25,929 nucleotides of DNA from a virus (IMGVR_UViG_3300036884_000080:1-25929), one strand, 5' to 3'. Counted from the first letter of the stretch, positions 2,783 to 23,916 are shown. Made by a program: numbers and translations. Notes: generated from the sequence alone by a model not told the origin.

Positions 2783-2791
2783 CGAACCTAG
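2783..2791 (+). promoter_or_regulatory. Start-associated element copy 1 (CGAACCTAG), putative late promoter
   Basis: CGAACCTAG followed by ATC and then the GTG start at 2795. There is no Shine-Dalgarno sequence between element and start. It begins 14 bases after the sigma-like gene stops and would launch the unit running through the large terminase. If transcription begins at G2795, the element occupies -12 to -4. Confidence 0.7.
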
Positions 2792-2794
2792 ATC

Positions 2795-3037
2795 GTGAGT
2801 ACCCGCCGGCAGCGCGAGCAGCATCACAAGGGCAAGAAGAGGCCGGGCCACTGGCATCAGGGCGCCGGGCTCGCCCGGGAGCAGGTGCCGCGCCTGGAGG
2901 CGCTCGCCGCCGCTGAGCAGCGCGGACGTACCGCCGACGACGAGCTGCGCGCGGTCGCGTCCCGCTACCACGAAGACATCGACGTGTGGCAGTCGCTCGC
3001 GCACGCGGCCCCGTTCGTGCCGAGGATCGCCTCGTGA
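2795..3037 (+). CDS. Small basic hypothetical protein, first gene of the terminase unit
   Basis: An 80-residue protein whose GTG start directly follows element copy 1, suggesting a leaderless message. The N-terminus is very basic and His rich (STRRQREQHHKGKKRPGHWH); the rest is charged and likely helical. No family is recognised. Its place just before the terminase suggests a DNA-packaging or nucleic-acid-binding accessory, but this is inference from position and charge only. Confidence 0.6.
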   Translation: MSTRRQREQHHKGKKRPGHWHQGAGLAREQVPRLEALAAAEQRGRTADDELRAVASRYHEDIDVWQSLAHAAPFVPRIAS

Positions 3038-3225
3038 TCGGCCGCACCCGCTGGCGCTGCCACGAAGCCCGCCTCGGCGACGACCCGTACCGGCGCGACT
3101 ACCCCGCCTGCGGCACCTACGAGGAATACCAGCACGAGGACGAGTCGTGGATCTGTGAACGTTGTGGGCATGTCGAGCTGCCGGCGGCGAAGCGGGCGAA
3201 GCGTCGGCAGCCCGCCCGCTCGTGA
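3034..3225 (+). CDS. Small zinc-ribbon-like protein
   Basis: A 63-residue protein from GTG at a GTGA overlap with the preceding gene. It has WRCHE and YPACGTY near the N-terminus and WICERCGHVEL near residue 42, giving spaced Cys/His pairs consistent with a zinc ribbon, then a basic tail (AKRAKRRQPARS). Function is unknown. It is coupled to the large terminase gene by another GTGA overlap. Confidence 0.6.
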   Translation: MIGRTRWRCHEARLGDDPYRRDYPACGTYEEYQHEDESWICERCGHVELPAAKRAKRRQPARS

Positions 3226-5057
3226 CCGCGCTCGCCCAGGCGGCGCAGGCCGCCGCACGCGAGCTCGAGCTCCAGTTCGCCCGCGCCGAGCAGCAAGAGA
3301 TCGAACTCACCGAAGCCGAACGCTGGGCCAGGGATCCGATCGGGTGGATCAACGCGCACGTCTGGATCGCGAGCGTGTTCGGCAGCGACGGCATCCGGGC
3401 GAAGGTGCGCGCCCTCCGGATGCGCCTCTTCCCGGACCAGGAGGCGACGATCGACGCGTGGATCGACCTCCCGCACTTGGCCGCCACGGGCGAGCTCGTC
3501 TTCCGGAACATCGACGCGGAGAAGTCCCGGCAGATCGGCGAGACGTGGCTGTTCGCCGCCGCCATCTGCTGGCTCCTGCACTACCACCGCAGCATCGTCG
3601 GCGGCTGCTTGCACACGGTCGGCGCCGAGATCGACGACGGCGGCGAACGCAACACGATCAAGAGCCTCTTCGGGAAGATCCGCTACATCGACCGCCGCCT
3701 CGACCGTGCCCGAACACCGGGTCTCGGCGACCTCCGCTTCTGGCCGTTGTCGAATCAGGGGCCCGCGAAGATCGAGAACCAGGCGAACGGCGCCGTCGTC
3801 TACGGGGAAGGGCAGAAGGACAACCCGTTCCGCGGCTCCACGCTCGACTTCGCGTTGATCGACGAGGCCGCGTTCGTCCGACACGGCGAGCAGGTGCACG
3901 CGGCGATCGACGACGCGTGCCCGGACGGGAAGGCGTACGTGTCGACGGTCAACGGCGACGACAACATCCACGCGCGCATCGCGGACGAGCGGCCGGAAGG
4001 GTGGACGGTGCTGCGGTTGCACTGGTCGAACCATCCCGTCTACTCGCAGGGTCTCCACGTCGCAGCGGCGCTCGAGCACGACGAGCGCGGCAGCGTGGTC
4101 GGTGTCGCCGAGCCGGGTGACCCCGAATGCGAGATGTGCGCCGGTGTGCTCGCCGGCGTCGAGTGGTCGCCGCGTGACCCGCGCGCGCACCGCTACCCCG
4201 GCAAGCTCGCGTCGCCGTGGTACGACCAGCGCGTCATCGGCAAGACGGACGAGCAGGTGGCGCGCGAGCTCGACATCGACCGTGAGGGCGCGCTCGGCGC
4301 CCGCGTCTACGGCGAGTTCCAAACCGAACGGCACGTCGTCGCGGCCGGCATTCCGCTCGACCCTTCCCTCCCGGTCGAGTTCGCGTGGGACTTCGGCCTC
4401 GACTGCACGAGCGTGATCGTGCTGCAGGACGCGCCGCACGAGCTCCGAGCGGTCGCGCTCCTCGAGATGGGCGACCTGTTCGGGACGACCGCGGTGCCCC
4501 AGCTCGTCGCGGCGGCGTTGCGGGAACTGCTTGTCTCGCTCGGCGTGCAGGCGCAACACACGACGCCGTTCTGGACGAAGAAGATGCAAGGCTGGGGCGA
4601 CCCGGCCGGCGACGGCCGCTCAACCCAGACGGGCATCTCGGACATTCAGGAGTATGCGAAGCAGGGGTTCTCGATCTTGACGCCGCCGAGGCGGTTGACG
4701 ATGCGGGTGGAGACGTCGATTGTGGCGGTGAAGCGGCTGCTGATCGGGACGCCGAAGCCGCTCGTGATCTGCGGCGTGAAGGCGGAGGGGTTGGCTCGCC
4801 ACTTTCGGAACAACACGTGGCCGGTCGACCCGATCTCGCAGAAGCGGCGGAAGGGTGCGACGCGGCCGCTCGACGACGTCCACAACCACTCGCTCCGGGC
4901 GTTCGCCTACTACGCGGTGGCGAAGTATCCGCCGCCGACCGAGTACGACGCGCAGGACGGCCCCACCGGCGACATCGGCGACGACGGCGACAATGTCCGT
5001 GAGCGGCGCAGCCGGCGCGGCGTCACCTCGACGCTCTCCTATGGCATGAAGTTCTAG
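3222..5057 (+). CDS. Terminase large subunit (DNA-packaging ATPase and nuclease)
   Basis: A 611-residue protein, the usual size for a large terminase, which powers genome packaging into the prohead and cuts the concatemer. The start is taken as the GTG overlapping the preceding stop. A Walker A-like segment carries K101 in AEKSRQIGETWL, the KSRQIG-type variant common in phage terminases. Walker B is DFALIDEAA (residues 209-217) with the catalytic Asp-Glu pair D214/E215. The RuvC-like nuclease domain begins at EFAWDFGLD (about 387-394), and a late acidic/His segment (RPLDDVHNHSLRAFAYY) fits its last motif. It precedes the portal, the standard order. Confidence is high. Confidence 0.95.
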   Translation: MTALAQAAQAAARELELQFARAEQQEIELTEAERWARDPIGWINAHVWIASVFGSDGIRAKVRALRMRLFPDQEATIDAWIDLPHLAATGELVFRNIDAEKSRQIGETWLFAAAICWLLHYHRSIVGGCLHTVGAEIDDGGERNTIKSLFGKIRYIDRRLDRARTPGLGDLRFWPLSNQGPAKIENQANGAVVYGEGQKDNPFRGSTLDFALIDEAAFVRHGEQVHAAIDDACPDGKAYVSTVNGDDNIHARIADERPEGWTVLRLHWSNHPVYSQGLHVAAALEHDERGSVVGVAEPGDPECEMCAGVLAGVEWSPRDPRAHRYPGKLASPWYDQRVIGKTDEQVARELDIDREGALGARVYGEFQTERHVVAAGIPLDPSLPVEFAWDFGLDCTSVIVLQDAPHELRAVALLEMGDLFGTTAVPQLVAAALRELLVSLGVQAQHTTPFWTKKMQGWGDPAGDGRSTQTGISDIQEYAKQGFSILTPPRRLTMRVETSIVAVKRLLIGTPKPLVICGVKAEGLARHFRNNTWPVDPISQKRRKGATRPLDDVHNHSLRAFAYYAVAKYPPPTEYDAQDGPTGDIGDDGDNVRERRSRRGVTSTLSYGMKF

Positions 5058-5095
5058 CCCGTGGTCTGACCGGTACGTGACCGGGCACGCCCGGT

Positions 5096-5104
5096 CGAAC
5101 CTAG
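5096..5104 (+). promoter_or_regulatory. Start-associated element copy 2 (CGAACCTAG)
   Basis: CGAACCTAG, then ACC, then GTG at 5108. It lies in the 50-base gap between the terminase and the short gene before the portal. A GC-rich inverted repeat (ACCGGGCACGCCCGGT, 5080-5095) abuts it on the 5' side and could act as a weak terminator or operator. Confidence 0.7.
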
Positions 5105-5107
5105 ACC

Positions 5108-5245
5108 GTGAAGGCTTTCCTCCGCGAGTTGTTCGTCACGCTCGACGTGCTGCTCGGCGCCGACCACAGCGCGCGAGGGCATCAGCCGCCCGAGTACGTC
5201 CTGCCGCCGACGCTCCCGCCGACGAAACCGAGGAACATCCCGTGA
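5108..5245 (+). CDS. 45-residue hypothetical protein upstream of the portal
   Basis: A short gene starting at GTG 5108 directly after element copy 2 and ending in a GTGA overlap with the portal start. The product begins KAFLRELFVTLDVLLGAD, likely a helix, and ends in a Pro-rich tail (PPEYVLPPTLPPTKPRNIP). No family is recognised. It may serve mainly as the leaderless entry point that couples ribosomes to the portal gene. Its position between element and overlap is the main reason to accept it. Confidence 0.55.
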   Translation: MKAFLRELFVTLDVLLGADHSARGHQPPEYVLPPTLPPTKPRNIP

Positions 5246-6672
5246 GGCTCGGCCCGCTCGCGATCCAGTTCGGCCGCGAGAACGTCGCGGAGGCGAGACG
5301 GCGCCTCGCGGCCGCCCCGTCACCGCCTGGCGGCGAGCTCGGCGTCGACTCCGACCACTGGCTGAACCGGTGGGCCGGCGGCGGCCCCGACCCGAACGTC
5401 ATCCTGACGGGGTCGCAGAAGTTCGGCGTCTACGACGAGATGGCCCTCTCGGACGCGACCTGTAAGGCGCTCTTGTGGATGATGAAGCTGCCGATGCAGG
5501 GCGCGGTCTGGGACGCCGAACCCGCGAGCGAAGACCCGGTCGACGTGCTGATCGCGAACGCTGTCCGCTGGAACTTCGGGCTCAACGACGAGGACGGCCA
5601 GTTGGATGTGACGTGGCGTGCGACGCTCGACCAGAAACTGTTGAAGCTGCGGTACGGGTGCATGTGGGAGGAGATCGTCTGGGGCGACCCCGTCACCTGG
5701 ACCGACAAGGAGACGGGCGCGTCACGTCTCATCCGGCCGATCGTCCGGCTCGCACCGCGGCTGCCGAAGACGGTGATCGACGTCAAGTACGAGAACGGCA
5801 AGGTCGCGGAGATCACGCAGAACCTCACGTTGGCGAAGCCGATCCCGGCGGAGAAGCTCGCCTACTACGTCCTCGACGCGCAGCCGGGACGGTGGGACGG
5901 CACGAGCATGTTGCGTGCGGCGTGGGGGCCGTGGGAGATGAAGAAGCAGCTGATGATCTCGGCCGGCATCGCGTGGGACCGGTGGGCGTCAGGGTTCCCG
6001 GTGATCCGGTATCCGCTCTCGGGTGGCCAGGCGGAGATCGACAAGGCCGAGGAGATGGGACGCAGCATCCGCAACCACGAGCGCGCCTACCTCGCGTTCG
6101 CCGGCCCGGAACCGACCGACCTCTCACCCGACGGGTGGGGAATCAAAATCGAGGGCGGGCCCGCCCACCTCCCGGACCCGGTGCCGCTCCTGAAGGAGTA
6201 CTCGTACATGATCCTGCAGGCCGGCCTGATGACGTTCATGGCGCTCGGGAACACGCCGTCGGCGTCAAGGGCGGTCGGCCAGGTGCAGGACGAGCCGTTC
6301 TACCTCGTCGTCGAAGCCGTCGCCATGGACCTCGGTTTGGAGATCCAACGGCAGGTGTGGCGCCGCTTCGTCGACGTCAACTTCGGCACCGAATATGCGA
6401 CACCGAACTGCAAAGCGTCGAAGATCATGTCGGAGGACACGGCCCAGTTGTCGTCGACGATGGCGGCGTTGAAGCTGGCCGGCTTCGACTTCTCCGATAA
6501 GCAGACGCAGGACGTCGTGCGTGAACGGATGCACCTTCCCGACCTCCCCGACGACTGGGCGTCGACGCCGACGGAAGGGTCAGGACTCCCCGCCGCACCG
6601 AGACCGCCGCCGGCGCCCGACCCGGCGAAGCCTGAGCAGTTGCCGCTGCCGACGGTAGGGGAGAAGTCGTGA
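5242..6672 (+). CDS. Portal protein
   Basis: A 476-residue protein forming the dodecameric ring at the capsid vertex through which DNA enters and leaves. The start chosen is GTG 5242, overlapping the previous stop; a longer upstream reading would run through element copy 2 and the short gene and is rejected. Characteristic segments include NRWAGGGPDPN, the LSDATCKALLWMMKLPMQGAVW stretch, WEEIVWGDP, and a conserved central helix region with LISAGIAWDRWASGFPVIRY-like sequence. It resembles the DUF935 / Mu gp29-like portal group of actinophages. The C-terminus is Pro rich. It lies between terminase and head morphogenesis genes as expected. Confidence 0.9.
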   Translation: MRLGPLAIQFGRENVAEARRRLAAAPSPPGGELGVDSDHWLNRWAGGGPDPNVILTGSQKFGVYDEMALSDATCKALLWMMKLPMQGAVWDAEPASEDPVDVLIANAVRWNFGLNDEDGQLDVTWRATLDQKLLKLRYGCMWEEIVWGDPVTWTDKETGASRLIRPIVRLAPRLPKTVIDVKYENGKVAEITQNLTLAKPIPAEKLAYYVLDAQPGRWDGTSMLRAAWGPWEMKKQLMISAGIAWDRWASGFPVIRYPLSGGQAEIDKAEEMGRSIRNHERAYLAFAGPEPTDLSPDGWGIKIEGGPAHLPDPVPLLKEYSYMILQAGLMTFMALGNTPSASRAVGQVQDEPFYLVVEAVAMDLGLEIQRQVWRRFVDVNFGTEYATPNCKASKIMSEDTAQLSSTMAALKLAGFDFSDKQTQDVVRERMHLPDLPDDWASTPTEGSGLPAAPRPPPAPDPAKPEQLPLPTVGEKS

Positions 6673-7172
6673 CACGTCTTCCTCTGCCGGGGCCGCGTGA
6701 CAGCGCGCGCATCCTTCGCGCCCGCCGCGCGGGCATCGTGAATCCGCTGATCGCCTGGCAGGAGGCCAAGCTCCTCGGGCTTCCGTTCGCGTTGCTGTGC
6801 GCGGTGCTCGACCAGGAGACGGGCGGCGGCCATAACGTGTTCGGACACGACCCCACCATCTGCGTCGGTGCGGGAGCGGTGACGAAGGCCAAGTATCTCG
6901 CGTACAGGGAGGCGCGCGGCACGACACACATGCAGGGTGTGGGGCCGATGCAGCTGACGTGGTGGAGCACGCAGGACAAGGCGGACGCGCTCGGCGGGTG
7001 TTGGCTGCCGCGGTGCAACATCCGCGTCGGCGCCGGCGCCCTGTCCTACAACGTGACACGGTACGGCCTGGACGCCGGAGTGGCCGCCTACAACGGCTCC
7101 GGGGTCGCAGCCACGAACTACGCCACCCGCGTGATCGCCCGCTACGACAAGTGGAAGCGGATCCTCCAGTGA
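6669..7172 (+). CDS. Lytic transglycosylase / lysozyme-like protein (SLT fold)
   Basis: A 167-residue protein from GTG at a GTGA overlap. It matches the soluble lytic transglycosylase fold: the likely catalytic Glu is E50 in LDQETGGGHNVFGHD, followed by VGPMQLTWW, NIRVGAGALSYN and GLDAGVAAYNGSG, the conserved order of this family. It would cleave peptidoglycan glycan strands. No signal peptide is obvious. Its location between portal and MuF genes, far from the lysis cassette, suggests a virion-associated enzyme that opens the cell wall during DNA entry rather than an endolysin, but that is inference. Confidence 0.8.
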   Translation: MTRLPLPGPRDSARILRARRAGIVNPLIAWQEAKLLGLPFALLCAVLDQETGGGHNVFGHDPTICVGAGAVTKAKYLAYREARGTTHMQGVGPMQLTWWSTQDKADALGGCWLPRCNIRVGAGALSYNVTRYGLDAGVAAYNGSGVAATNYATRVIARYDKWKRILQ

Positions 7173-7816
7173 CGACGTCTGGCCTGGACAAGGCCGTGAG
7201 CGCCACTCTGCAGACGTTCACCCTGGATGACCTCGCCCAGTTCACGCGGGAAGGCTCGTTCGACCCGCGCGACAGCACCGACTTCCGCACGTTTTACGTC
7301 GGCCGCGACGACGTGCACGGTGTCCTCAAGTATCTGCACTCCCGAGTGACCGTCTCCGAGAAGCTGTCGATGTTCGGCTTCGACGACGACGAGCTCGCCG
7401 CGCTGATCGTCGCGCTGATCCTCAGCGAGCACGTCTACTTCCAGGGGACGCTCGACAAGTCGCAGTCGGGCGGCAAGCACGAGAAGGCGATCCTCGCCGC
7501 GTTCGCGGCCGGCGTCCGTGCCGTCTTCGCGGTCGGGAACACCGCGAGCGGCCAGATCGAGCACACGAAGGGTGGCGTCCTCGACGGCGTCGTCGGCTTC
7601 GAAGGCTCGACGAACTGGTCGAACTCGGGGGAAGGCACAGGCATCGGCCTCCGCGGCGCAGCGAACCTCGCCGGCTACAAGGCGCAGGCAAACACGCTGG
7701 TCGTGTTCACAAACCCGGTCGAGATTCAGCGTTTCTCGACGCGGCTCGACGAGGAGCACGCGTCGATCGTGCAACGGCAAGCCACCAAGCCTGTTCCGCC
7801 GTCTGCTGCCGCGTGA
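7169..7816 (+). CDS. HKD phospholipase-D-like protein, head-module copy
   Basis: A 215-residue protein from GTG at a GTGA overlap. It contains one full HKD motif, HxKxxxxD with H132, K134 and D139 (HTKGGVLD), followed by GFEGSTN (N149), the phospholipase D superfamily signature. Single-HKD members such as the Nuc endonuclease act as dimers on phosphodiester bonds; other members cut phospholipids. An FYVGRDDVHGVL segment precedes a DDDEL helix and a TLDKSQSGGKHEKAI segment resembling the first half of the fold. A clear paralog lies at 24702-25340. The substrate cannot be told from sequence. Confidence 0.8.
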   Translation: MTTSGLDKAVSATLQTFTLDDLAQFTREGSFDPRDSTDFRTFYVGRDDVHGVLKYLHSRVTVSEKLSMFGFDDDELAALIVALILSEHVYFQGTLDKSQSGGKHEKAILAAFAAGVRAVFAVGNTASGQIEHTKGGVLDGVVGFEGSTNWSNSGEGTGIGLRGAANLAGYKAQANTLVVFTNPVEIQRFSTRLDEEHASIVQRQATKPVPPSAAA

Positions 7817-8595
7817 CCGTCCGCCAGATCGACCACGCCCGCGTCGAAGCGCGTATCGGCCGCCGCCTCACCGCCGCCGAACGCCACATCGACGTCGAGA
7901 CGATCGACGCGCTGCTCAACCAGGCGAAGGACTTCCTCGACGCGGAGATCCGCCGCGAACAGGCACGCCTCGCCGCGTTGGTCGCGGCCGGGCATGGCGG
8001 CCGGCTCGAGGTGACACCCAGGATGGTCGCGATCCTCGCCGACCTCCGCAAACACGGCCGCGCGCACGCGCTGAACGAGCTCGCGTCGATGGGCTACCCG
8101 GTCAGGGCGAACGAGCGCCGCTTCGCGGTACCTGCGCAACCGCCCGACGAGCCGCCGCCGCCGCGGCCGCACCTCGTCGTCCTCTCCGACTCGATCCTCG
8201 AAGGACGGCTACGCACGCGCCTCGGCGAGTTGACGATCAAAGTGCAGACCGAGGCGGTCGGCCTCGACCTCTCGAGCATGAGCGTCGCGGCGATCGAGAA
8301 GGCGCTCATCGACGTCCTCGGCGCACGCTCGATCGCCGCCGACCTCGTCGCGCCCGCCTTCAGTGCGGGCCTCGGCGACACGTTCGCGGCGCACCAGGAC
8401 CTGATCGACGGATGGGAATACTCGGCGGTCATGGACGGCGCCTCTACGTGCGACCCGTGCGCAGAGCTCGACGGCACGACGTACGCGACGACCGCCGACC
8501 TCATGGAAGTGCTACCCGACTTCGGCGGAAACCCGGACTGCGACGGTGGGACGCGCTGCCGCTGCCGCGCGATCCCTCTCCCGGCGGGCGGCTGA
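7813..8595 (+). CDS. MuF-like minor head / head morphogenesis protein
   Basis: A 260-residue protein from GTG at a GTGA overlap. The C-terminal part (about residues 196-257) is the typical MuF/SPP1 gp7 domain: WEYSAVMDG, then CDPCAELDGTTY, then LPDFGGNPDC and TRCRCRAIPL, with paired cysteines that probably bind metal. Such proteins associate with the portal inside the capsid and assist assembly or DNA ejection. The N-terminal half is helical. It follows the portal group as expected. A stand-alone relative of this C-terminal domain is encoded on the - strand at 25337-25576. Confidence 0.88.
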   Translation: MTVRQIDHARVEARIGRRLTAAERHIDVETIDALLNQAKDFLDAEIRREQARLAALVAAGHGGRLEVTPRMVAILADLRKHGRAHALNELASMGYPVRANERRFAVPAQPPDEPPPPRPHLVVLSDSILEGRLRTRLGELTIKVQTEAVGLDLSSMSVAAIEKALIDVLGARSIAADLVAPAFSAGLGDTFAAHQDLIDGWEYSAVMDGASTCDPCAELDGTTYATTADLMEVLPDFGGNPDCDGGTRCRCRAIPLPAGG

Positions 8596-8870: not shown

Positions 8871-9340
8871 TGGCCGGCGGCTTCAACGTCACCGTCACCG
8901 GCGGCGAGGCTTATCAGCGGAAGCTCGCGCAACTCGAACTCCACCTCGCCGACCTCTCGAACTTCTGGCCGCTGCTCGTGCCGATCTTCATTGGCTGGAT
9001 GGGCGAGCAGTTCACGTCCGAGGGCGGCTGGGGCGGAACGCACTGGGACGCGTTGACGCCCGCCTACGCGGCCGAGAAGTCCCGCAAGTTCCCAGGCAAG
9101 AGCATCCTGATCCGCGAGGGTGATCTTCGGCAGGCGGCGAGCCGGCCGCGCCGCGAAACGACTCCGCGCACGTTGACGCTCTGGATCGACGACCCCGTCG
9201 CTGAATATCACCAGGACGGCACGACGACGATGCTGCCGCGCCCGCTGATCCCTGACCCGTTGCCGGAGTCGGCGCGCATCGAGGTAGAGGCTGCAGCGCA
9301 CGAATATGTGAGCGTGCTCGTCAGACAGCTCGGCCTCTGA
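8870..9340 (+). CDS. Phage virion morphogenesis protein, Mu gpG-like
   Basis: A 156-residue protein from ATG 8870 in a TGATG overlap. It has the pattern seen in Mu gpG / tail-completion proteins: an N-terminal helical part with FWPLLVPIFIGWMGEQFTSEGG, then W...LTPAYAAEKSRKFPGKSILIREGDLRQAAS, where the family usually reads W..L....a..K...g..iL..tG.L..s. An YHQDGTTTMLPRP segment follows, also typical (HQ.G....PaRp). Function is probably head-tail joining or tail completion. It ends the unit that began at copy 2. Confidence 0.75.
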   Translation: MAGGFNVTVTGGEAYQRKLAQLELHLADLSNFWPLLVPIFIGWMGEQFTSEGGWGGTHWDALTPAYAAEKSRKFPGKSILIREGDLRQAASRPRRETTPRTLTLWIDDPVAEYHQDGTTTMLPRPLIPDPLPESARIEVEAAAHEYVSVLVRQLGL

Positions 9341-9341
9341 C

Positions 9342-9350
9342 CGAATCTAG
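9342..9350 (+). promoter_or_regulatory. Start-associated element copy 3 (CGAATCTAG), upstream of tRNA-like RNA
   Basis: CGAATCTAG then GCT, then G9354, the first base of the predicted acceptor stem of a tRNA-like fold. With the spacing seen at the protein starts, transcription would begin at or next to G9354. This copy is the only one not followed by a credible start codon for a protein. Confidence 0.65.
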
Positions 9351-9353
9351 GCT

Positions 9354-9421
9354 GCGCCGTGGAGGAGGGCTCCTCGCCAGCCCCATAAGCTGGAGACCTC
9401 GGGACGAGACCCGGGCGGCGC
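9354..9421 (+). ncRNA. tRNA-like cloverleaf RNA with CAT anticodon loop, non-canonical
   Basis: A full four-arm fold can be drawn by eye. Acceptor GCGCCG (9354-9359) pairs with CGGCGC (9416-9421). The D-arm pairs GAGG (9362-9365) with CCTC (9372-9375) around loop AGGGCT. The anticodon arm pairs CCAGC (9377-9381) with GCTGG (9389-9393) around the 7-base loop CCCATAA, placing CAT at 34-36. A 5-base variable region follows, then a T-arm CTCGGG/CCCGGG-type stem around a 6-base loop ACGAGA. Oddities are a 6-bp acceptor with a T-stem extended to 6 bp, C instead of U at position 33, no TTC in the T loop, and no encoded CCA. It may be a degenerate tRNA-Met/Ile-like gene or a tRNA mimic. Confidence 0.5.
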
Positions 9422-9426
9422 TACTT

Positions 9427-9462: not shown

Positions 9463-9471
9463 TTCATCGTC

Positions 9472-9520: not shown

Positions 9521-9540
9521 GATCTATGTCTGACCTAGGT

Positions 9541-9549
9541 CGAACCTAG
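9541..9549 (+). promoter_or_regulatory. Start-associated element copy 4 (CGAACCTAG) with abutting palindrome
   Basis: CGAACCTAG then ACC then GTG at 9553. The perfect palindrome GACCTAGGTC (9532-9541) overlaps its first base, so the CTAG core occurs twice within 12 bases. The palindrome could be a dimeric repressor site or a decayed second copy. Confidence 0.7.
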
Positions 9550-9552
9550 ACC

Positions 9553-10086
9553 GTGGACCTCTTCGCGCCGCGGATCCGGACGACTCTCGCTTCGCTGCGG
9601 GCCGGCCTGCCCGCCCGGATCACCGTCTTCAACGGTGAAGGAAACGCGCAGCTCGCCCTCCCCGCCGACGACGCCGGCGCCCTTTCACCGCGCAGGCCGG
9701 GCCTCGGCTACATATTCGGCGGTCTCCCCCGTTACGGCGCAGGCGAGTTCCCCGTCATCGAGGTCGCGATCCCCGATGCCCAGGTCGACAACCTCTCGCT
9801 CGCTCACGTCGAGGGCGACTTGTCGTCGAGCATTGTCGTCGCGGTCTGGGCGGGCCGCACCTCGGGCGAGGATTTCCCGCAGTTGTACGAGACGGTGCTC
9901 GGCTACGCCAGGTGCGTCACCGAAGTGTTGCTCGTGCCGGGTGCGATCTACCCGTCCGAGACGGTGCAGCGGATCCGTTATGCGTTCGCTGCGAACCCTG
10001 ACCGGCGGGAGCGCGACGAGATGGAGACGTTCACGTTCGGCGGCTTCGTCTTCCTCACCACCGACGGGATCGCGGCGCGGCCCTAG
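9553..10086 (+). CDS. Probable head-tail connector or minor structural protein
   Basis: A 177-residue protein whose GTG start directly follows element copy 4. It has no recognisable enzyme motif. The pattern EFPVIEVAIPDAQVDNLS, then HVEGDLSSSIVVAVWAGR, then LYETVLGYARCVTEVLL resembles connector or tail-terminator proteins, which often carry a strand-rich core and a helix facing the connector ring. It is the only protein gene of its unit and converges with a - strand gene; their stop codons share CTAG. The functional call is from position and general pattern. Confidence 0.5.
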   Translation: MDLFAPRIRTTLASLRAGLPARITVFNGEGNAQLALPADDAGALSPRRPGLGYIFGGLPRYGAGEFPVIEVAIPDAQVDNLSLAHVEGDLSSSIVVAVWAGRTSGEDFPQLYETVLGYARCVTEVLLVPGAIYPSETVQRIRYAFAANPDRRERDEMETFTFGGFVFLTTDGIAARP

Positions 10087-10316: not shown

Positions 10317-10331
10317 GCCCGACGCGTCGGC

Positions 10332-10340
10332 CGAATCTAG
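10332..10340 (+). promoter_or_regulatory. Start-associated element copy 5 (CGAATCTAG)
   Basis: CGAATCTAG then ACCG then ATG at 10345. It is the exact T-type form, CGAATCTAGACCGATG, shared with copies 7 and 9, and it heads the protease/scaffold/capsid unit. No Shine-Dalgarno sequence separates it from the start. Confidence 0.72.
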
Positions 10341-10344
10341 ACCG

Positions 10345-11880
10345 ATGCCCGTCCTCGAGACCGTCACCATTCCCGCCGTCGAGGTGCTGAGCACCGGCGG
10401 CCCTGTGCATGGGCAAGGCTCACCGCCCGAGGGAGATTTTTGGTCGCGCGAGGATCTCGAGCGGATCGCCGCCGCGAATGTCGCGTTGGCCGCGGAGATC
10501 AAGGCGCCGATGAAGATCGGCCACTCGGACGCGCAGACCCTCGTCGCGAACAGCGCGCTCGCCGCACTGACACCCGGCGAGATGCCCGCGGTCGGCTGGC
10601 TCGACGGCAGCACGGCCCGCGTCGTCGACGACGGGGACGGGGCGAAGCTTGTCATGGACGCGAAGGCTGTCCCGCGCGCGTTCGGCGACCTGATCGACGC
10701 GGGCGCCTACCGCACCCGCTCGTCCGAGCTGTCGAGGGTCACGTCGCAGGTGAGCGGCACCGTGTACGACTGGGTCGTCACCGGACTCGCCTGGCTGGGC
10801 GCAAAGCTGCCGGCCGTGCAGACGCTCGACGACGTCGTCGCGTTGTACGCGTCCCGTTCGCTCGAGCGTGACGACCGGGTGCGCGCCTATGTCGTCTACG
10901 CGGCGAGCACGAGCCTGCCGGCCGGCGTGAAGGTCTGCTCGATGAAGGGCACGGCCGGCTACTCCGGGGGCGGCGCCTGCCACATGCACGACGGCACCGA
11001 CACTGGTAAGGCCGCGGCCATGAAGAAGGCGAAAGCGGATGCGGCCAAGCGTGCGAACGCCGCAGCCGACGGGACGCTCGTCTGGACGCCCGACTCGTCG
11101 TTCCAGGCGTTGCGCGACGACGTCAACGAAGCTTTGAACGGGCCGCCGACTGGGGGCGCGACCAATCCGCGCTTCTGGGTCGCCGACATCGCCTTGTCTG
11201 GGGATGCGGCGCTCGTGCAGGACTATTACGAGGACGGTGACGACGGCTGGGTCGTCCCATTCACGGTCAACGGGGACGGGTCGATCGCGATCTCGCCATC
11301 CTCGGATTGGCAGCCGGTCGAGCAGGGCTGGGTCGCCACGGCGAACGAGTACGCGGCCAAGTTTGGCCCTCGCGCCGAATCTAGGTCGATGGAGCTCACG
11401 CTCACCGACGAGCAGGCAGCCGAGGTTCGCACCACGCTTGGCCTCGAAGCCGACGCGGAGATCACCCCCGAGTCGCTCGTCGAGGCGTCGACTGCTCGCG
11501 CGAACGAGTTGGCCGCAGCGAAGACCGCAGCCGCCGACGCCGAGACGCGCAAGCTCGAGGCCAGCGACCTCGTCAAGACCGTCCGCAAGCTCGAGGCCGA
11601 CGTGAAGGTCGAGCAGACCCGCCGGTTCGAGCTCGAGCGCGACACCGACCTCACCGCGGCCGTCCGCGCCGGGAAGATCGACCCCGCGCAGCTCGACGAC
11701 TGGAAGAAGGACTATGAGGAGAACCAGGCCGGCACGCGCCGGATCCTGGAGCGCCTCAAGTCCGACCCCGATTTGGTGCGCGAGTTCGGCCGCGACGACG
11801 GCGAAGAGACCGGCGCGCAGACCGACGAGGAGTACCAGCGCGACTTCGAGCGGCGCCACGGCATGAAGGCGACGGTCTGA
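10345..11880 (+). CDS. Capsid maturation protease fused to scaffold domain
   Basis: A 511-residue protein starting at ATG after element copy 5. The N-terminal 170 residues resemble Mu gpI-like phage proteases, with APMKIGHSDAQ, EMPAVGWLDG, then AVPRAFGDLIDAGAYRTRSSEL. A middle section (about 190-345) contains a Cys/His patch (CSMKG...ACHMHDG), a basic Ala/Lys helix, and a domain with RFWVADIALSGD followed by DGWVVPFTVNGDG. Residues 349-511 are a charged coiled-coil scaffold beginning MELTLTDEQAAEV. Fusion of protease and scaffold, with a nested scaffold-only product, is known from lambda C/Nu3. It sits immediately before the decoration and capsid genes. Confidence 0.8.
   Translation: MPVLETVTIPAVEVLSTGGPVHGQGSPPEGDFWSREDLERIAAANVALAAEIKAPMKIGHSDAQTLVANSALAALTPGEMPAVGWLDGSTARVVDDGDGAKLVMDAKAVPRAFGDLIDAGAYRTRSSELSRVTSQVSGTVYDWVVTGLAWLGAKLPAVQTLDDVVALYASRSLERDDRVRAYVVYAASTSLPAGVKVCSMKGTAGYSGGGACHMHDGTDTGKAAAMKKAKADAAKRANAAADGTLVWTPDSSFQALRDDVNEALNGPPTGGATNPRFWVADIALSGDAALVQDYYEDGDDGWVVPFTVNGDGSIAISPSSDWQPVEQGWVATANEYAAKFGPRAESRSMELTLTDEQAAEVRTTLGLEADAEITPESLVEASTARANELAAAKTAAADAETRKLEASDLVKTVRKLEADVKVEQTRRFELERDTDLTAAVRAGKIDPAQLDDWKKDYEENQAGTRRILERLKSDPDLVREFGRDDGEETGAQTDEEYQRDFERRHGMKATV
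11376..11384 (+). promoter_or_regulatory. Start-associated element copy 6, inside the protease coding region
   Basis: CGAATCTAG then GTCG then an in-frame ATG at 11389. The surrounding codons read Ala-Glu-Ser-Arg-Ser-Met, so the element is kept inside coding DNA. This is the only copy lying well within a gene and would allow separate production of the scaffold. Confidence 0.7.
11389..11880 (+). CDS. Nested scaffold protein (in-frame internal start)
   Basis: A 163-residue product from the ATG that follows element copy 6, in the same frame as the protease gene (its residue 349). The sequence is highly charged and helical (KTVRKLEADVKVEQTRRFE, then an Asp/Glu-rich C-terminus), typical of scaffolds that organise capsid protein before maturation and are then degraded. 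Many more scaffold than protease copies are needed per prohead, which explains the benefit of a separate promoter. The start is inferred from the element; no Shine-Dalgarno sequence is seen. Confidence 0.65.
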   Translation: MELTLTDEQAAEVRTTLGLEADAEITPESLVEASTARANELAAAKTAAADAETRKLEASDLVKTVRKLEADVKVEQTRRFELERDTDLTAAVRAGKIDPAQLDDWKKDYEENQAGTRRILERLKSDPDLVREFGRDDGEETGAQTDEEYQRDFERRHGMKATV

Positions 11881-15018: not shown

Positions 15019-15027
15019 CGAATCTAG
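15019..15027 (+). promoter_or_regulatory. Start-associated element copy 7 (CGAATCTAG)
   Basis: CGAATCTAG then ACCG then ATG at 15032. An alternative in-frame ATG at 15005 overlaps the connector stop, so the gene could be reached both by coupling from upstream and by new transcription from this element. It heads the tail module. Confidence 0.72.
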
Positions 15028-17317: not shown

Positions 17318-17320
17318 CTG

Positions 17321-20300
17321 ATGGATCGCGTCGGCGTCGTTTTTGACGGCACATCGGTCGGCGCGATCGCTGCGGCCAAGGAGACGGTCGCAGCGATCGA
17401 CAAGGTCAAGCTCTCGGTCGACGAGCAGGCCCGGAACAACATCGTCGCGCGCGCCGAGGAGCGGAAGTCGCTCGAAGCCCTCGCGGCGCAATACACGCTC
17501 GTCGCGGAGCGGGCGGCGAAGGGATCAGAGGTTCAGGTTGCGGCCGCCCAACTTGCGGCCGACGCACAGAAGAAGCTCGCGGTCACGACGGTCGAGAGCG
17601 CAGACGCCAGCTCGGGTGCGTTCCGCGGGATGGGCAACTCGATGAGTGGCCTCGGCCGCTCGATGGTGGTCACCTCCGCCGCGTTTGTAGGCATCGGCGG
17701 GTTCGCCTGGGCCTTGAAGTCGTCGATCGACGTCGTGCTCGCGTCGCAGACGAGCATCGTCTTGCTTGACAGAGCGGTCACGAATGCGCACGCCTCCGTG
17801 AAGGCGCTGACGCCGATCCTCAACGAGCAGGCGGCGGCTGCGCGGCTGCTCGGCTTCAACGACAACGACACGCGTGACGCGGAGGCGAAACTCGTCACCG
17901 CGTTCGGCGCGACGAAGAAGGCGCTCGACGAACTCAATCAGGCCGAGAACCTCGCGCGCGCGAGCAGCATCCCTCTGGCTGATGCGGCCAAGCAGCTGAT
18001 CCTGCTGCAGGAGGGGAACGCGCGCGCCGCCAAGCAGTTCGGGATCGTGCTCCCCGATCTGACGAAGGCGCAGTGGGAGGCGAAGGCCGCCGCCGACGGG
18101 CTCACCTTGGCCCAGGAGAAGGGCAAGGTCATGTACGACGAGCTGCTGCCGCGGATCAAGGCGCAGGCGGCCGCGTACGCGGCTTCGCCGGCGGGGAAGA
18201 TCGCCGAGTTCCACGCTGAGGTGCAGCACTTGCAGGAGTCGATCGGCACCGGCCTGCTCCCGGTCGTCGACAAGTACCTGACCGAAGTCGACGCGTGGCT
18301 CGCGAAGTCGGACAACCAGAAGAAGGTGACCGACGACGTCAAGAAGGTCGTCGACGAGCTCGCCGCCGCGCTCAGGGACGCGAAGACGGCGACGGAAGAC
18401 GTACTGAAGGTCGCGGAGCCGGTCGTGAAGGCGCTCGGCGGCTGGAAGTCGGTGATCGAGGACTTGGTCGCGTTGAAGCTCGCCGCGACCATCTTCGGGT
18501 GGGCGGGCGCCGTCGGGAAGTTCGGACTGGCGATCAAGGCGATCCCTGCGCTTCTCGGTGAAGCCGGTTTGGCGGGCTCGATTGGTCTGTTCATGGCAAA
18601 CCCCGAGATCCAGGGTTCCTCGCCGTCATGGGTGGCATCGCGGTCCTCTCGAAGATGTGCGCTGGCGCTCTCGGCGGCGGCACGATGCCCGCCCAGATCG
18701 GCAGTCACAAGCTCCAGGAGACCGGCGCCGGGGCTGGCTACAAGGTCGGAAAACAGGTCGTCTCCTACGCCAATGGCGGCTGGTACGTCTCGGATGCCGA
18801 CACGAACGCGAACGGCAGGGACGTGTCGGCGGCTGAGGCGGCGAAGCTTCTGGGCGTCTCCGTGGCCAAGCTTCCCGGCGGTGGTAGCAGCACCGCCTTC
18901 CCCGGCGACAAAAACGCGAAGCCGCAGTCCGGCGGGACAGCGTTCGGGCTCGTCACCGCCGCCAAGGGACTCGGCGTCGGCTCCGGCGGCACCTACGCGA
19001 CCGGCGGCGGCCACAGCGGCATCGCGAAGCCGGGCACGAAGTTCGACTGCTCCGGCTACATCTACCAGGTCTTCGTCCAGAACGGCTTCAAGGATTTCCC
19101 CGGAACCTCGGAGACGCAGTGGTTCACCGACGCCGGCACCAACTGGACAAGCGACACGATCAACCCGTCAGACGCCAAGCCCGGCGACGTCGTCTTCATG
19201 GTCGGAAAAAGCTACGCATCGCCTGGGCACGTTGGCATCGTCACCGGCGGCTCCGGCATGGGCGCGACGGTGATGCAGTACTACTCGCCCGGGATGCCGC
19301 CCGACACGATCCTGCTCTCGAACATCGGCGATCTCGTCGGAATCAAGCGCTTCTACCTGATCGCGCAGACGAAGACGCCCTACGGGCCCGACCTGACGAA
19401 GACCGCGGGTAGCGCGAGCAGCGCTGCGGCGACAAAGCCGAAGAAGACTCCGTGGGTCGGTGCGACCCAGGCGACGATCATCAGCGCCCAAGGCGGCATC
19501 GCCGCAACCCTCAAAGGCCTCCCCGCCACCCTCGACCCCGTCGAGAAGAACGCGGTCGCCCACATCGAGGCGATCCAGGACTCCCTCCACATCCACATGA
19601 CCCCGGCCGCGCTCGCGCAAGACAAGGTCGAGCTGACGAAGTGGGGCAAGGTCCTGAACACCGAGATCACCGCGAACGCCAAGGTTGTCGCAGCCGCCGC
19701 CGCCGCAGCGAAACAAGTCTTCGACCGGGCGTTGTCGCTCGACGTGTCGACGATCCTGCGCAACTTCGACCAGAACTACGCGGCCCAGGTCAAGACGTTC
19801 AACACCGAGACGAGCCGAAACCTGAAGGACATGCAGACCGCGTTCTCGCTGCAGCAGGCCGCGTTCGACAAGGTGACCCAGACCGGGCTGCAGGGCTTCG
19901 TTGTTGCGCAGACGCCCGAGGAGAAGGCGCTCGCCGACTTCATCGCCGGCCGGGCGGCGACGGTGGCGACCGCAGCCGCGGTGCAGCGGACGACCGACCT
20001 CGCAACACAGCAGGCGGCGCTCTCGACGATGCAGCAGGTCGGCCTGGGCGGAACCGACGCGACGGGAACGATCGTCACGCAGGCGATGATCGACACGGCG
20101 GTCGCGGCCGTCGCCACGGCCCAGGACGCGATCAACCAGGCCAGCCTCGACTCGCAGCAGCAGGGACTCCAGGACGCCGCCGACGCGAGCCGCGTCGCGC
20201 AGGACGCGCAGACGACCGCGCAGCAGCAGGCATACCAGGACTCCCGCGACCTGCAGAAGCAGGCGCTCCAGGACAAGGAGACCGATCTCGAGCAGGCCTA

Positions 20301-20829
20301 CCAGGATCAGCGCGACGCGCAGGCGCAGGCTTTGCAGAACATCAACGACGACCAGAAGGTCGCGCTGCAGCAGCACCTCGACGACCTCGGATTGTCGCTC
20401 ACCAACCACCTGATCACGTGGCAGAACTACCTCGACGCGCTCGCGAAGCTGGGCGTCGACACGACCGGCCTTGTGAACCCGGTCACCGGCCAGGTCGGCG
20501 GCAGCGCCTCGACCTACGACAAGATCGTGAGCGGCGTCCTGCGCACCGCACCGTTCGGCACGAACATCGCGGCCGCCGCCGGCGGCAAGATCCCCGGCCA
20601 GTACGTCGGCCGCAACGACACGATCATGGCCCGTGTCACCCCAGGCGAGACCGTCCTCGACCGGAAGCTCACCGCCGCGCTCGAAGACATGGTCGCGAAC
20701 GGGGGCGGCGGCCCGAGCCACGTCGTCACCATCGTGAAGGTCAACGACCGCGTGATCGCCCAGGCGATCGGCCCGGCGATGACCGCTGAGCAGGCCCGCC
20801 AGATCGGCTACACCATCCAACGGGGCTGA
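17321..20829 (+). CDS. Tape measure protein with NlpC/P60 domain, encoded across a -1 frame change
   Basis: The first part (from ATG 17321) has long helices, SGAFRGMGNSMSGLGRSMVV, a hydrophobic stretch, and ends in PALLGEAGLAGSIGLFMANP. At AAACCCC (18598-18604) coding moves to the -1 frame and continues RDPGFLAVMGGIAVLSK. The joined product is about 1169 residues, which would predict a tail roughly 170-180 nm long at the usual 0.15 nm per residue. An NlpC/P60 peptidase domain is embedded: Cys codon 19048-19050 in KFDCSGYIYQ and His codon 19228-19230 in SPGHVGIVTG. The later part is a Gln/Ala/Asp-rich coiled coil. The unshifted frame stays open to 19273, but in Ser/Arg/Pro-rich shadow sequence. 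Confidence 0.82.
18598..18604 (+). promoter_or_regulatory. Candidate -1 frameshift site AAACCCC in the tape measure gene
   Basis: A perfect X-XXY-YYZ heptamer in register: incoming codons AAC and CCC can re-pair as AAA and CCC. It sits at the point where coding shifts from one frame to the other. A miscounted C run in the assembly would give the same picture. Confidence 0.55.
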
Positions 20830-20831
20830 CG

Positions 20832-22052
20832 ATGGCCGCGGTCGCTCGCGCCTCCTACAACGCGTACGTCTCCTGGAGCGCCTACAACGTCGGCCTCCTC
20901 AGCTTCGACCACTCCCTCTTCGACGGCACAGACGTCTTCGGCGTCTCACCGTTGGACGCATCGTTCGGCGGCACCTACGACGACGTCTCGAAGATCCTCG
21001 ACACCGCGACCGTCACCCGTGGCCGCTCGAACAAACTCGACACGATGCTCGCCGGCAGCGCATCCGTCGACCTGCGCGACCCCGCCGGCCTGTTCAACCC
21101 CGAAAATGCGTCCGGCCCCCTCTACGGCCAGCTCGAAGACCGGTTGCACCCGGTGAAGCTGACCGCAACCCAGGCCGGCGTCGGCACGTTCGGCCTCTTC
21201 TACGGCTGGGTCAACGACTTCGCGTGGCAGCCGTCCGGGCGGCGAGGCATCACACGCCTGAACTGTGTCGACCTGTTCTACTGGCTGCAGCGCGCGACCC
21301 CGATCATCGCCTCCACAGGTGTCACGACGACGGGGGCGGCGATAGGGAAGATCCTCGACGCGGTCGGCGCAACCGACATCGGGATGCGCGACCTCGGCGT
21401 CGGCGACTCGATCCCTGACTTTAGCGCGGACGGGACGAAGACCGGGCTCGACCTGATCCAGGGGCTGCTCGAGGCGGAGCGCGGCGTCTTCTTCGTCGCC
21501 GGGACAGGCAAGGCCACCTACCGGTCCCGCCTCGACCGGCTCACACGCACGTCGGTGCACACGTTCACGGACACGTTCACCGGCGCCGAGCCGGGCGTCG
21601 ACTGGAACCAGGCGTACACCCGCGTCGTCGTCACGCGTACCCAGACCGGCTACACCGCGACCGCGGTCAGCTCGGCCGGGGTCGCGAAGAGCGGGTACAA
21701 CGACCTCCCCGCGATCTCGACTCCTTACCTCTCGGCCGACTCGCAAGCCGACGCGCTCGCAGCCTGGGTCCTTTCCCAGAACGTCTCGCCGAAGCCGCCG
21801 ACGCGCGACTTCACAATCGACAACCGCACCGCCGACCTGCTCACGCAGGCGCTGACGCGCGAGCTCGTCGATCGGATCACCGCGACCGAGTCGCGCGGCG
21901 GCTCGAGCGGCGACTACCACATCGACTCGATAAGTCACACGATCGACAACCAGGGCGGCCACTCGGCGACGTGGCTCTTGTCGAAAGCGTCACCGCTCAC
22001 CCCGATCGTCTTCGACATGAGCGTCTTCGACGGCCCCAACACCTTCCTCTGA
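20832..22052 (+). CDS. Minor tail protein, baseplate-hub-like
   Basis: A 406-residue protein starting three bases after the tape measure stop. Elements include TVTRGRSNKLDTMLAGSAS, VDLRDPAGLFNPEN, LFYGWVNDFAWQP and VDLFYWLQRATP, a pattern common in actinophage minor tail proteins that form the hub at the tail tip. The start and end of the protein carry similar phrases (FDHSLFDGTDVFG and FDMSVFDGPNTFL). No separate distal tail or tail-associated lysin gene is seen, so this protein may combine roles. It ends the tail unit that began at copy 7. Confidence 0.7.
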   Translation: MAAVARASYNAYVSWSAYNVGLLSFDHSLFDGTDVFGVSPLDASFGGTYDDVSKILDTATVTRGRSNKLDTMLAGSASVDLRDPAGLFNPENASGPLYGQLEDRLHPVKLTATQAGVGTFGLFYGWVNDFAWQPSGRRGITRLNCVDLFYWLQRATPIIASTGVTTTGAAIGKILDAVGATDIGMRDLGVGDSIPDFSADGTKTGLDLIQGLLEAERGVFFVAGTGKATYRSRLDRLTRTSVHTFTDTFTGAEPGVDWNQAYTRVVVTRTQTGYTATAVSSAGVAKSGYNDLPAISTPYLSADSQADALAAWVLSQNVSPKPPTRDFTIDNRTADLLTQALTRELVDRITATESRGGSSGDYHIDSISHTIDNQGGHSATWLLSKASPLTPIVFDMSVFDGPNTFL

Positions 22053-22063
22053 CCGGCGCGCGC

Positions 22064-22072
22064 CGAATCTAG
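22064..22072 (+). promoter_or_regulatory. Start-associated element copy 8 (CGAATCTAG), longer spacing
   Basis: CGAATCTAG followed by AGACAG and then ATG at 22079. The spacing to the start is two bases longer than in the other T-type copies, so the transcript may carry a leader of one or two extra bases. Preceded by GCGCGC. Confidence 0.65.
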
Positions 22073-22078
22073 AGACAG

Positions 22079-22690
22079 ATGGCCGGCTACCTAGTACCGC
22101 CCGCAGTCTCCCCCGGGAACGTCCTCACCAGCGCGGGGTGGAACCTGATCCGTGACGACCTCGACTTCGGGATGGTCAGGCCGATCGCCGGCGCCGTCCT
22201 TGGCGGGTCGGCCGCGTCGATCGACTTCTCGAACATCCCGGCAACGTTCGCGCACCTCCAGCTCGTGCTCTCCCTCCGCTCGGACAACGCCGCGGCCGCC
22301 GTGAACATCTTAATGCGGTTCAACAACGACGGCGGCGCAAACTACGATTACCAGCTGGCGATCGCTGCCGCAGCCGCGACGACCTACGCAGAATCGTACG
22401 CCGGGACAAACCTCTACCTGGGCGACTGCCCCGGCGTCGGCTCGGCCGCATACCTGTACAGCAGCCACCAGATCTGGCTGCCCGACTACCTGAACGCCGG
22501 CAACAACAAGGCATGCACGGGGGTCGGATCCACGAAGGTCGGGACGACGACCGGCGGCCTTCGCGACTACCTGCTCGGCGGCTGGTGGCGCAACAGCGCC
22601 GCAATCAACCGGATCACGATCATATGCGGCGCCAGCGCGAACTTCGTCACCGGAAGCCGTGCCGTCCTCAACGGGATGGGCAGCACCTAA
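22079..22690 (+). CDS. Distal tail / appendage protein, possible receptor-binding protein
   Basis: A 203-residue protein that follows element copy 8. It starts GYLVPPAVSPGNVLTSAGWN, has a strand-rich Gly/Ala/Asn body (MRFNNDGGANYDYQLAIAAA) and ends in SRAVLNGMGST; similar phrases occur in phage appendage proteins with a jelly-roll or C-terminal tip domain. Placement between tail hub and lysis genes supports an exposed tail role. Host receptor cannot be guessed. Confidence 0.55.
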   Translation: MAGYLVPPAVSPGNVLTSAGWNLIRDDLDFGMVRPIAGAVLGGSAASIDFSNIPATFAHLQLVLSLRSDNAAAAVNILMRFNNDGGANYDYQLAIAAAAATTYAESYAGTNLYLGDCPGVGSAAYLYSSHQIWLPDYLNAGNNKACTGVGSTKVGTTTGGLRDYLLGGWWRNSAAINRITIICGASANFVTGSRAVLNGMGST

Positions 22691-23226
22691 TGGCTGACAA
22701 CACACCGGTCAAGGTCGCCGTCGACTGCTCCACCCCTGACCGTGACGCAGTGGTCGCGTACACGCAGGACCAGGTCGAGGCCGTCCTCAAGCAGCGCACC
22801 GACGGGAACATCACGAGCGAGGAAGCGGCAGCGACCCTCGTCGCGCTCGCCGACCAGGCCGTCGATGCAGCCGGGATCCCCGACCGCGTCACGGTCGTGC
22901 CGCTCGTCGCCGACGAGCTCACACAACGCGCCATCGACCAGGCCGCAGCCGAAGCCGCCGCCGCAGCCCCGGCGACCCCCGCGGAACTCGCAGCCGTCCC
23001 GGCACAGATGGCCGCCGCGAACCTCGCCGCCACGTTCACGACGACAGACGAGGTAGCCGCCGCAGCCGAGCAGCTCCACGCCGCAGCCAAGGCGGGTATC
23101 GCGAACTTCAAAGCCGACCTCGCCGCCTGGGCGACGCTGACGGACGCCCAGAAGCTCTCGCACGTCCAGGGGCTGATGCAGTCGATGGTCGCCGTCCTGC
23201 AGAACCTCACCGGCGACTACTCGTAA
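22690..23226 (+). CDS. Helical Ala-rich protein of the distal tail region
   Basis: A 178-residue protein from ATG 22690 in a TAATG overlap with the previous gene. It is almost wholly alpha-helical and Ala rich, with YTQDQVEAVLKQRTDGNITSEEA-like segments, a low-complexity Ala/Pro stretch at about 94-112 and LTDAQKLSHVQGLMQSMVAVL. No family is recognised; a chaperone or tail accessory for the preceding appendage protein is possible from position. Confidence 0.5.
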   Translation: MADNTPVKVAVDCSTPDRDAVVAYTQDQVEAVLKQRTDGNITSEEAAATLVALADQAVDAAGIPDRVTVVPLVADELTQRAIDQAAAEAAAAAPATPAELAAVPAQMAAANLAATFTTTDEVAAAAEQLHAAAKAGIANFKADLAAWATLTDAQKLSHVQGLMQSMVAVLQNLTGDYS

Positions 23227-23258
23227 CCGCGTTACACCACCTGGACAGCGGCCCGAGC

Positions 23259-23267
23259 CGAATCTAG
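23259..23267 (+). promoter_or_regulatory. Start-associated element copy 9 (CGAATCTAG), lysis cassette
   Basis: CGAATCTAG then ACCG then ATG at 23272, identical over 16 bases with copies 5 and 7. It lies in the 45-base gap before the endolysin gene and would start the lysis cassette as a separate transcript. Confidence 0.72.
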
Positions 23268-23271
23268 ACCG

Positions 23272-23916
23272 ATGCTCGCCACTCTGAAGAAGCTGGTCAC
23301 GCGCGACACGCGCGCCGGGATCGTGAAGTGGGCACGGGGATGGGGTGTCGCGAACGAGCCGCAGATCCACTACCGCGAGACGCGGCCGATGCCGCTCACC
23401 GCGACACTGCCGTTGACGACGGACTGTTCCGGCTTCGTGACGCTCTGCTACTTCCTCGCCGGCGCACCCGACCCGAACGGGCTCGGCTACAACGGGCAGG
23501 GCTACACCAGGACGCTGCTCGCCCACGGCAAGCACATCCCGCTCGCACAGGTGAAGCCGGGAGACGTGATCGTGTACGGGCCCGGGGCGGGATGGCACAC
23601 CGCCCTGATCGTCGAGGCAGGACCTGACCCGCTGACCGTCTCGCACGGCCAGGAGAAGGGTCCGGAGCTTGTCCGTGTCTCACAGGACGGCAGGCTTCCG
23701 CAGACGTATCTGCGGTTCCCGACGAACGCGCGGCAGGCGAAGAAGCATGTGCCGAACGCGCCGCCGGTCAAGCCGATCGTGCAGCCGGTGCAGCCGAAGG
23801 CGAACGTCACTCCGGCTGACCCCTACCCCGACGCGGCGCCATCCCAGAAGCCGTCGCGCCGGCGAAGGCGAACGTCACAAAAGGCGGACCACTACCCGGA
23901 CGCCAAGCCACAGTGA
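23272..23916 (+). CDS. Endolysin-like NlpC/P60 peptidase
   Basis: A 214-residue protein started at the ATG behind copy 9. Residues about 30-145 are an NlpC/P60 cysteine peptidase domain with likely catalytic C52 (TTDCSGFVTLCY) and H109 (GWHTALIVE), which would cut stem-peptide bonds in peptidoglycan; VKPGDVIVYG is also typical. The C-terminal tail has repeated segments (KANVTPADPYPDA and KADHYPDAKP) around an Arg-rich stretch. No signal peptide is seen, consistent with release by the holin encoded downstream. Confidence 0.8.
   Translation: MLATLKKLVTRDTRAGIVKWARGWGVANEPQIHYRETRPMPLTATLPLTTDCSGFVTLCYFLAGAPDPNGLGYNGQGYTRTLLAHGKHIPLAQVKPGDVIVYGPGAGWHTALIVEAGPDPLTVSHGQEKGPELVRVSQDGRLPQTYLRFPTNARQAKKHVPNAPPVKPIVQPVQPKANVTPADPYPDAAPSQKPSRRRRRTSQKADHYPDAKPQ

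Follow-up and report, generated by a model that had tools for sequence, protein, structure and literature searches.

A nine-base element, CGAAYCTAG, recurs directly in front of gene starts in a viral DNA fragment from IMG/VR, IMGVR_UViG_3300036884_000080:1-25929 (25,929 bases, referred to as a whole as the window), whose gene content is that of a siphovirus-type late region with the end of DnaB, terminase, portal, protease, major capsid, tape measure, tail and holin. We consider it probable that CGAAYCTA(G) is the complete recognition element of a phage-specific, -10-only late promoter giving leaderless messages, and that it is read, together with the host RNA polymerase, by a phage sigma-like factor encoded in two overlapping open reading frames (ORFs), ORF A and ORF B. 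An earlier sequence-only reading of the window had suggested a phage-specific leaderless promoter, and this suggestion gained support from comparative tests in related contigs and from the presence of the element at tRNA 5' ends, with "promoter" itself still a reading of the sequence.

The element is over-represented and, in G001, confined to the late half

CGAAYCTAG occurs ten times in the window. Comparison with shuffled sequence bears out the element, as dinucleotide shuffles scored on both strands held 0.15 copies on average and never ten. Nine copies lie on the plus strand, exactly at the positions given by the sequence-only reading, but its statement that all copies are on that strand overlooked the tenth, CGAACCTAG at 25432..25440 on the minus strand, which has no start codon close behind. 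On the coding strand, CGAATCTAG and CCGAATCTA, which overlap by eight bases, were the two most over-represented 9-mers in both the window and its relative G001. Because they rank first without any prior choice of word, the choice of the word is not a selection effect.

Searches with the capsid and portal proteins brought up the related IMG/VR contigs G001 (IMGVR_UViG_3300012008_000012, 43,371 bp), G002 (IMGVR_UViG_3300011997_000022, 18,476 bp) and L027, a 4.1 kb fragment, and a scan of IMG/VR for the element turned up G007 (L058; IMGVR_UViG_3300003324_000461, 24,992 bp), which is related more distantly (TerL 72% and capsid 58% identical). All four carry the element. The ends of G001 appear to join, each continuing into the other in the alignment to the window. 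Pattern scans of IMG/VR with the element plus a start codon otherwise gave mostly single-copy chance matches, and the L116 copies were dropped since they look like T-loops of opposite-strand tRNA genes. The copy counts (32 exact and 36 core copies on the plus strand) cover the window, G001, G002 and G007, with L027 outside.

Exact copies number ten in G001 and ten in G002, on one strand only in each genome, and three in G007. Four further G007 copies differ in the ninth base alone (CGAAYCTAA/C) and lie 3–4 nucleotides (nt) before ORF starts, and three of these precede starts orthologous to element-bearing starts elsewhere. Because the G007 copies vary at the ninth base only, the core of the element is CGAAYCTA; the 9-mer first proposed thus keeps its first eight bases, but its ninth is dispensable. 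Every copy in G001 falls within 2.2–22.2 kb, the late half of the 43.4 kb contig, and the early half is without the element. We also observed two sub-classes among the 36 core sites, in which position 5 is coupled to the base before the core: C (mostly as GC) stands in front of almost every CGAATCTA, and A, G or T often in front of CGAACCTA.

The element stands at a fixed distance from gene starts

In 27 of the 32 exact plus-strand copies, an ATG or GTG follows after 3–6 nt and begins an ORF of 45 or more codons, a placement found for 5.4% of random positions and 6% of other TAG triplets. The remaining five comprise three copies 2–3 nt before the 5' ends of tRNA or tRNA-like genes and two before an orthologue that starts with ATC. 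In the window, eight copies lie exactly 3, 4 or 6 nt from an ATG or GTG opening an ORF of 45–511 amino acids (aa), and behind the ninth a tRNA-like cloverleaf begins after 2 nt, in agreement with the sequence-only reading; in the related genomes too the distance to starts is nearly always 3–6 nt, and 36 of 37 core copies are on one strand. Between orthologous sites, identity is 98% in the core, compared with 38% in the 28 nt upstream of it and 55% in the 4 nt that follow it. The relatives place the element at orthologous genes and at newly swapped genes alike.

All nine sites discussed here are on the plus strand. Behind the sigma-like ORFs, the late gene that comes first is preceded by CGAACCTAG at 2783..2791, followed by ATC and the GTG at 2795 of an 80 aa ORF, and the equivalents in G001 (2223) and G002 (1864) each stand before an unrelated small ORF. 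Directly upstream of the portal gene, CGAACCTAG at 5096..5104 leads through ACC to the GTG at 5108 of a 45 aa ORF. This site has positional equivalents in G001, G002, G007 and L027, and the element stays constant while the gene behind it changes, being a small ORF in the window, G002 and L027 and the portal gene in G001 and G007. At 9541..9549, CGAACCTAG is followed by ACC and the GTG at 9553 (177 aa), and the site is kept in G001, G002 and G007. The orthologue of this gene apparently starts with ATC at G002rc 9450 (gap 3) and G001 8237 (gap 7), and with GTG in the window and G007. The gene for the head maturation protease (10345..11880; PHROGs phrog_3894, E=2.4e-26) starts at ATG 10345, four bases (ACCG) after CGAATCTAG at 10332..10340, a site kept in G001 and G007. 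Within the same gene, CGAATCTAG at 11376..11384 is followed by GTCG and the in-frame ATG at 11389, which opens the conserved C-terminal 163 aa of the protease, a presumed scaffold ORF (11389–11880). The internal core copy is present in the window, G001, G002 and G007, and the arrangement of a protease with an internal scaffold start, which the sequence-only reading had missed, is presumably in the manner of lambda C/Nu3. CGAATCTAG also stands at 15019..15027 (ACCG, then ATG 15032; 111 aa), at 22064..22072 (AGACAG, then ATG 22079; 203 aa), kept in G001 with an equal 6-nt gap, at 23259..23267 (ACCG, then ATG 23272; 214 aa), likewise kept in G001, and at 9342..9350, where GC separates it from the 5' end of a tRNA-like RNA.

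Binding sites for a repressor, such as stoperators, or for another protein could in principle occupy such short intergenic gaps. The early proteins of G001 include an integrase, RecT, an SbcCD-like pair and DnaB; given the integrase the phage is probably temperate, and L5 stoperators are asymmetric and one-directional, both of which fit a repressor. However, the spacing of the element to the start is fixed within 1–2 bases, the intragenic copy lies exactly at an in-frame internal start, and the copies are confined to the late half of G001, a repressor site being less likely chiefly because of the fixed spacing. The cluster A/L5 stoperator GGTGGMTGTCAAG had 2 two-mismatch hits where 0.73 were expected; 13 of 100 shuffles had as many, so that the count is at chance level. 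We regard a repressor or other binding site as extremely unlikely.

The translational counterpart would be an element like the start-associated sequence (SAS) of cluster K mycobacteriophages, which is also found at start codons in one orientation (PMC3203893). Shine-Dalgarno pairing, however, is weak at seven of the eight element starts in the window; the claim that these starts are without a ribosome site held for those seven but not for the site at 2783, where GGAGG lies just upstream, 12 nt from the GTG. Nor does the element contain the AGGAG core, and even with two mismatches allowed the SAS consensus GGGATAGGAGCCC is not matched anywhere in the window, so that the element is distinct from the SAS, as had been stated from the outset.

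The element also marks the 5' ends of tRNA and tRNA-like genes

The copy at 9342 has its G001 equivalent in front of a tRNA-Met(CAU) gene, which begins 3 nt after the element and was found by both ARAGORN and Rfam (RF00005, E=7e-12). In the window, alignment with this tRNA-Met identified a tRNA-like cloverleaf at 9353..9423 on the plus strand, with a CAU anticodon, a 1:72 mismatch and a 6-nt T loop; neither ARAGORN nor Rfam made a call for it. The cloverleaves of the window and G002 share the CAU anticodon and the 6-nt T loop, and their D and T stems are altered yet pairing. Position 1:72 is non-pairing (U-C, U-U, C-U) in all three CAU RNAs (G001 8140–8212, L017; window 9353–9423; G002rc about 9194–9264), and a non-pairing 1:72 is a trait of initiator tRNAs. 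G002 has an extra tRNA-Gln(CTG) gene directly after the tRNA-like RNA (L020 9139–9211, minus strand). Because the element marks tRNA or tRNA-like 5' ends in three genomes as well as start codons, a purely translational signal is disfavoured, and we give a cluster K-like ribosome element next to no credence.

Predicted transcription start and the absence of a -35 box

Behind the 9-mer, the third base is C and the fourth base G in 27/36 sites each. This suggests the purine 4 nt behind the 9-mer as the predicted first base of the RNA, with a consensus of C at -1 and G at +1. The predicted +1 would be the first base of the GTG starts or the G just before most ATG starts (ATG at +2), and would fall within 1–2 nt of the tRNA 5' end. 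The core would then occupy about -12 to -5, with the ninth base at -4, which is the place of a -10 box, and the products would be leaderless mRNAs and tRNA 5' ends. Transcript starts in mycobacteria prefer C at -1, and ATG or GTG at +1 is common (PMC4633059). The C-1/G+1 of the element agrees with this cytosine preference (PMC4633059).

No -35 box exceeded chance among 32 sites, where the most frequent 6-mer, with a drift of 3 nt allowed, occurred at 10/32 compared with 6–12 at random sites, in line with the lack of a common -35 box noted by the sequence-only reading. Moreover, no sigma-70-type promoter was found within 8.8–15.4 kb.

A fixed distance to both mRNA and tRNA 5' ends, a strand bias and a strict sequence would equally be expected if a phage or host endoribonuclease cut a long late transcript just after CGAAYCUAG, releasing leaderless messages and tRNA 5' ends. 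Yet cutting at the internal site 11376, or at its equivalents in G001, G002 and G007, would destroy the protease message, and it is for this reason that processing is less likely than initiation. In addition, RNase P makes the tRNA 5' end, so that another enzyme is unneeded, and no other conserved feature surrounds the site, the upstream 28 nt being the poorly conserved stretch given above. We consider RNA processing very unlikely.

ORF A and ORF B are candidate readers of the element

If the element is a promoter, a sigma-like factor of the phage itself would guide the host RNA polymerase there; ORFs for such a factor, which the sequence-only reading had missed, lie immediately in front of the late genes. 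ORF A (2070..2798, plus strand), just upstream of the first late copy of the element, combines a Cys/His zinc-ribbon-like N-terminus with a sigma-70 region 2. Its best Pfam match to Sigma70_r2 has E=3e-5, and the match is found in three of the four orthologues (window, G001, G002 and G007). By sequence alone it resembles solved sigma factors weakly (FliA, E=0.55). In the fold comparison, each of the 50 structural matches listed is either a sigma region 2 or a scaffold derived from one (best Z 8.8); they include SigI, WhiG, sigma-28 and T4 gp55, with WhiG and sigma-28 among the best. ORF B (2446..2769, plus strand), which overlaps ORF A in the +1 frame, has a helix-turn-helix (HTH) resembling sigma region 4, with Pfam matches to Sigma70_r4_2 (E=1.1e-4; three of four members) and KORA (E=1.4e-5). 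The ORF B model has a predicted local distance difference test score (pLDDT) of 81, and sigma-4 domains are among its structural matches. ORF A, as region 2, would thus read the -10 element and melt the DNA, acting together with the region 4-like ORF B.

The two-frame layout is common to the window, G001, G002 and G007, and always stands at the head of the late region. Assembly error as the source of the two frames was ruled out, as the four contigs share the layout with ORF A 46–60% identical to that of the window. A possible start ATG of ORF B lies behind a G-rich stretch (GGGGGCGG/GGGGGAGG) in three genomes, and G001 is without that ATG. It is possible that ORF A and ORF B form a two-protein or a frameshifted sigma factor; the sequences are too diverged for a substitution phase test of the frame used in the overlap. 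A scan of the ten larger early proteins of G001 revealed no RNA polymerase. The transcription start sites, recognition of the element by ORF A/B, late timing and use of the host polymerase are inferences.

Several points weigh against this reading. The strictness of the element is unusual for a sigma site, with all start-associated copies matching at 9/9 positions in the window, G001 and G002. The sites at G001 8221 and G002rc 9438 lead to ATC and not to ATG or GTG, the window and G002 have a 2-nt gap that sets the predicted start slightly off the tRNA +1, and the minus-strand copy at 25432–25440, near the contig end and probably a chance match, has no gene start. The Sigma70_r2 match of ORF A is at the Pfam cut-off (24.2 vs 24 bits), its model is of low confidence (pLDDT 61), and a Z of about 8 is only supportive for a helical fold. 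ORF B resembles KorA repressors as well, and the matches of its model include response-regulator HTHs. ORF A and ORF B are candidates tied to the element by no direct link.

These doubts about the ORFs leave room for a rival, a late leaderless promoter whose reader is an alternative sigma factor of the host or another phage protein, with ORF A/B perhaps regulating something else. GCCGA is common to the T-type sites (GCCGAATC) and the -10 consensus of sigma-28, GCCGATAA (PMC2859248), so that a WhiG/FliA-like sigma of the host is conceivable. However, neither the sigma-28-type -35 (TAAA) nor any other -35 is conserved, ORF A/B head the late region in all four genomes, and the element is missing from the early half of G001. 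We judge a reader other than ORF A/B to be unlikely, and prefer the phage-encoded sigma-like factor. Going further, one can picture a temperate lineage in which leaderless promoters, 8 bp long and -10-only, drive the late genes through a two-polypeptide sigma in overlapping frames, and the same promoter type also yields a CAU tRNA, with an initiator-like 1:72 mismatch, that maybe favours start codons at RNA 5' ends; we put this whole scenario forward tentatively, as possible but rather doubtful.

Comparison with known systems

T4 late promoters, with gp55 and the co-activator gp33, are the nearest analogue, and the system described here would work alike in kind without being a member. The T4 element is TATAAATA, 8 bp at -13 to -6, and is read by gp55 (PMC1524935). 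Shared traits are a short and strict 8-bp element (predicted at -12 to -5 here), the lack of a -35, a phage factor with sigma region 2 and the retention of the host polymerase (predicted here). In contrast to T4, the element is CGAAYCTA and not TATAAATA in all four genomes, the messages are predicted to be leaderless, the candidate factor starts with a Cys/His domain and is joined by an overlapping region 4-like ORF, and the genomes are of a temperate siphovirus type with a G+C content of 68–72%. T4 late promoters also involve a sliding clamp bridged by gp33; nothing here points to a clamp link, though no search aimed at a clamp was made. By analogy, one might speculate that ORF B plays a gp33-like part. 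Sigma activity is divided between a region 2 and a region 4 polypeptide in SigO/RsoA of Bacillus subtilis as well. There the likeness lies in the division of regions, and the two ORFs here overlap out of frame.

Like the element, the cluster K SAS is a short conserved word that keeps one orientation and stands immediately in front of start codons (PMC3203893, PMC11373665). It has a ribosome-site core within its consensus GGGATAGGAGCCC (PMC3203893) and lies mostly outside the structural module (PMC12699233), whereas the element differs in sequence and is without such a core; the parts of the SAS literature at hand do not report it at tRNA 5' ends. Mycobacterial leaderless genes are alike in having ATG or GTG at the transcript +1 (predicted here) and C at -1 (PMC4633059), but they are host genes served by host promoters, and here a phage-specific word would replace the host -10. 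The -10 of sigma-28/WhiG promoters starts with GCCGA as do the T-type sites (PMC2859248), which serves as a lead only. The element lacks a TAAA-type -35, differs in its 3' half and has a short candidate factor split over two frames.

If the proposed promoter is real, a T4-like late-transcription strategy, with one strict -10 box and a phage sigma part, has arisen in a temperate phage of siphovirus type with GC-rich DNA and is joined there to leaderless translation, and the sequence alone yields candidates for the promoter word, the start base and the sigma factor. At about 36 sites the start would be predicted to the base; the element would be a candidate for a compact orthogonal promoter, and the split sigma factor would allow the cooperation of separate regions 2 and 4 to be studied.

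Relatives of the phage and other features

Cultured phages gave no near-DNA match to the window, and the papers listed by a full-text literature search for the 9-mer were all unrelated. Searches of bacterial and archaeal genomes gave no close relatives of the capsid or portal proteins and thus no pointer to the host. Among the matches listed, the relatives of the capsid are all distant (<31% identity) and belong to actinophages and Geobacillus phages. The window also contains a PLD-like gene segment in two copies, 7433–7636 and 24951–25166, which lie 17.5 kb apart, are 71–80% identical and show a weak match to PLDc_2.

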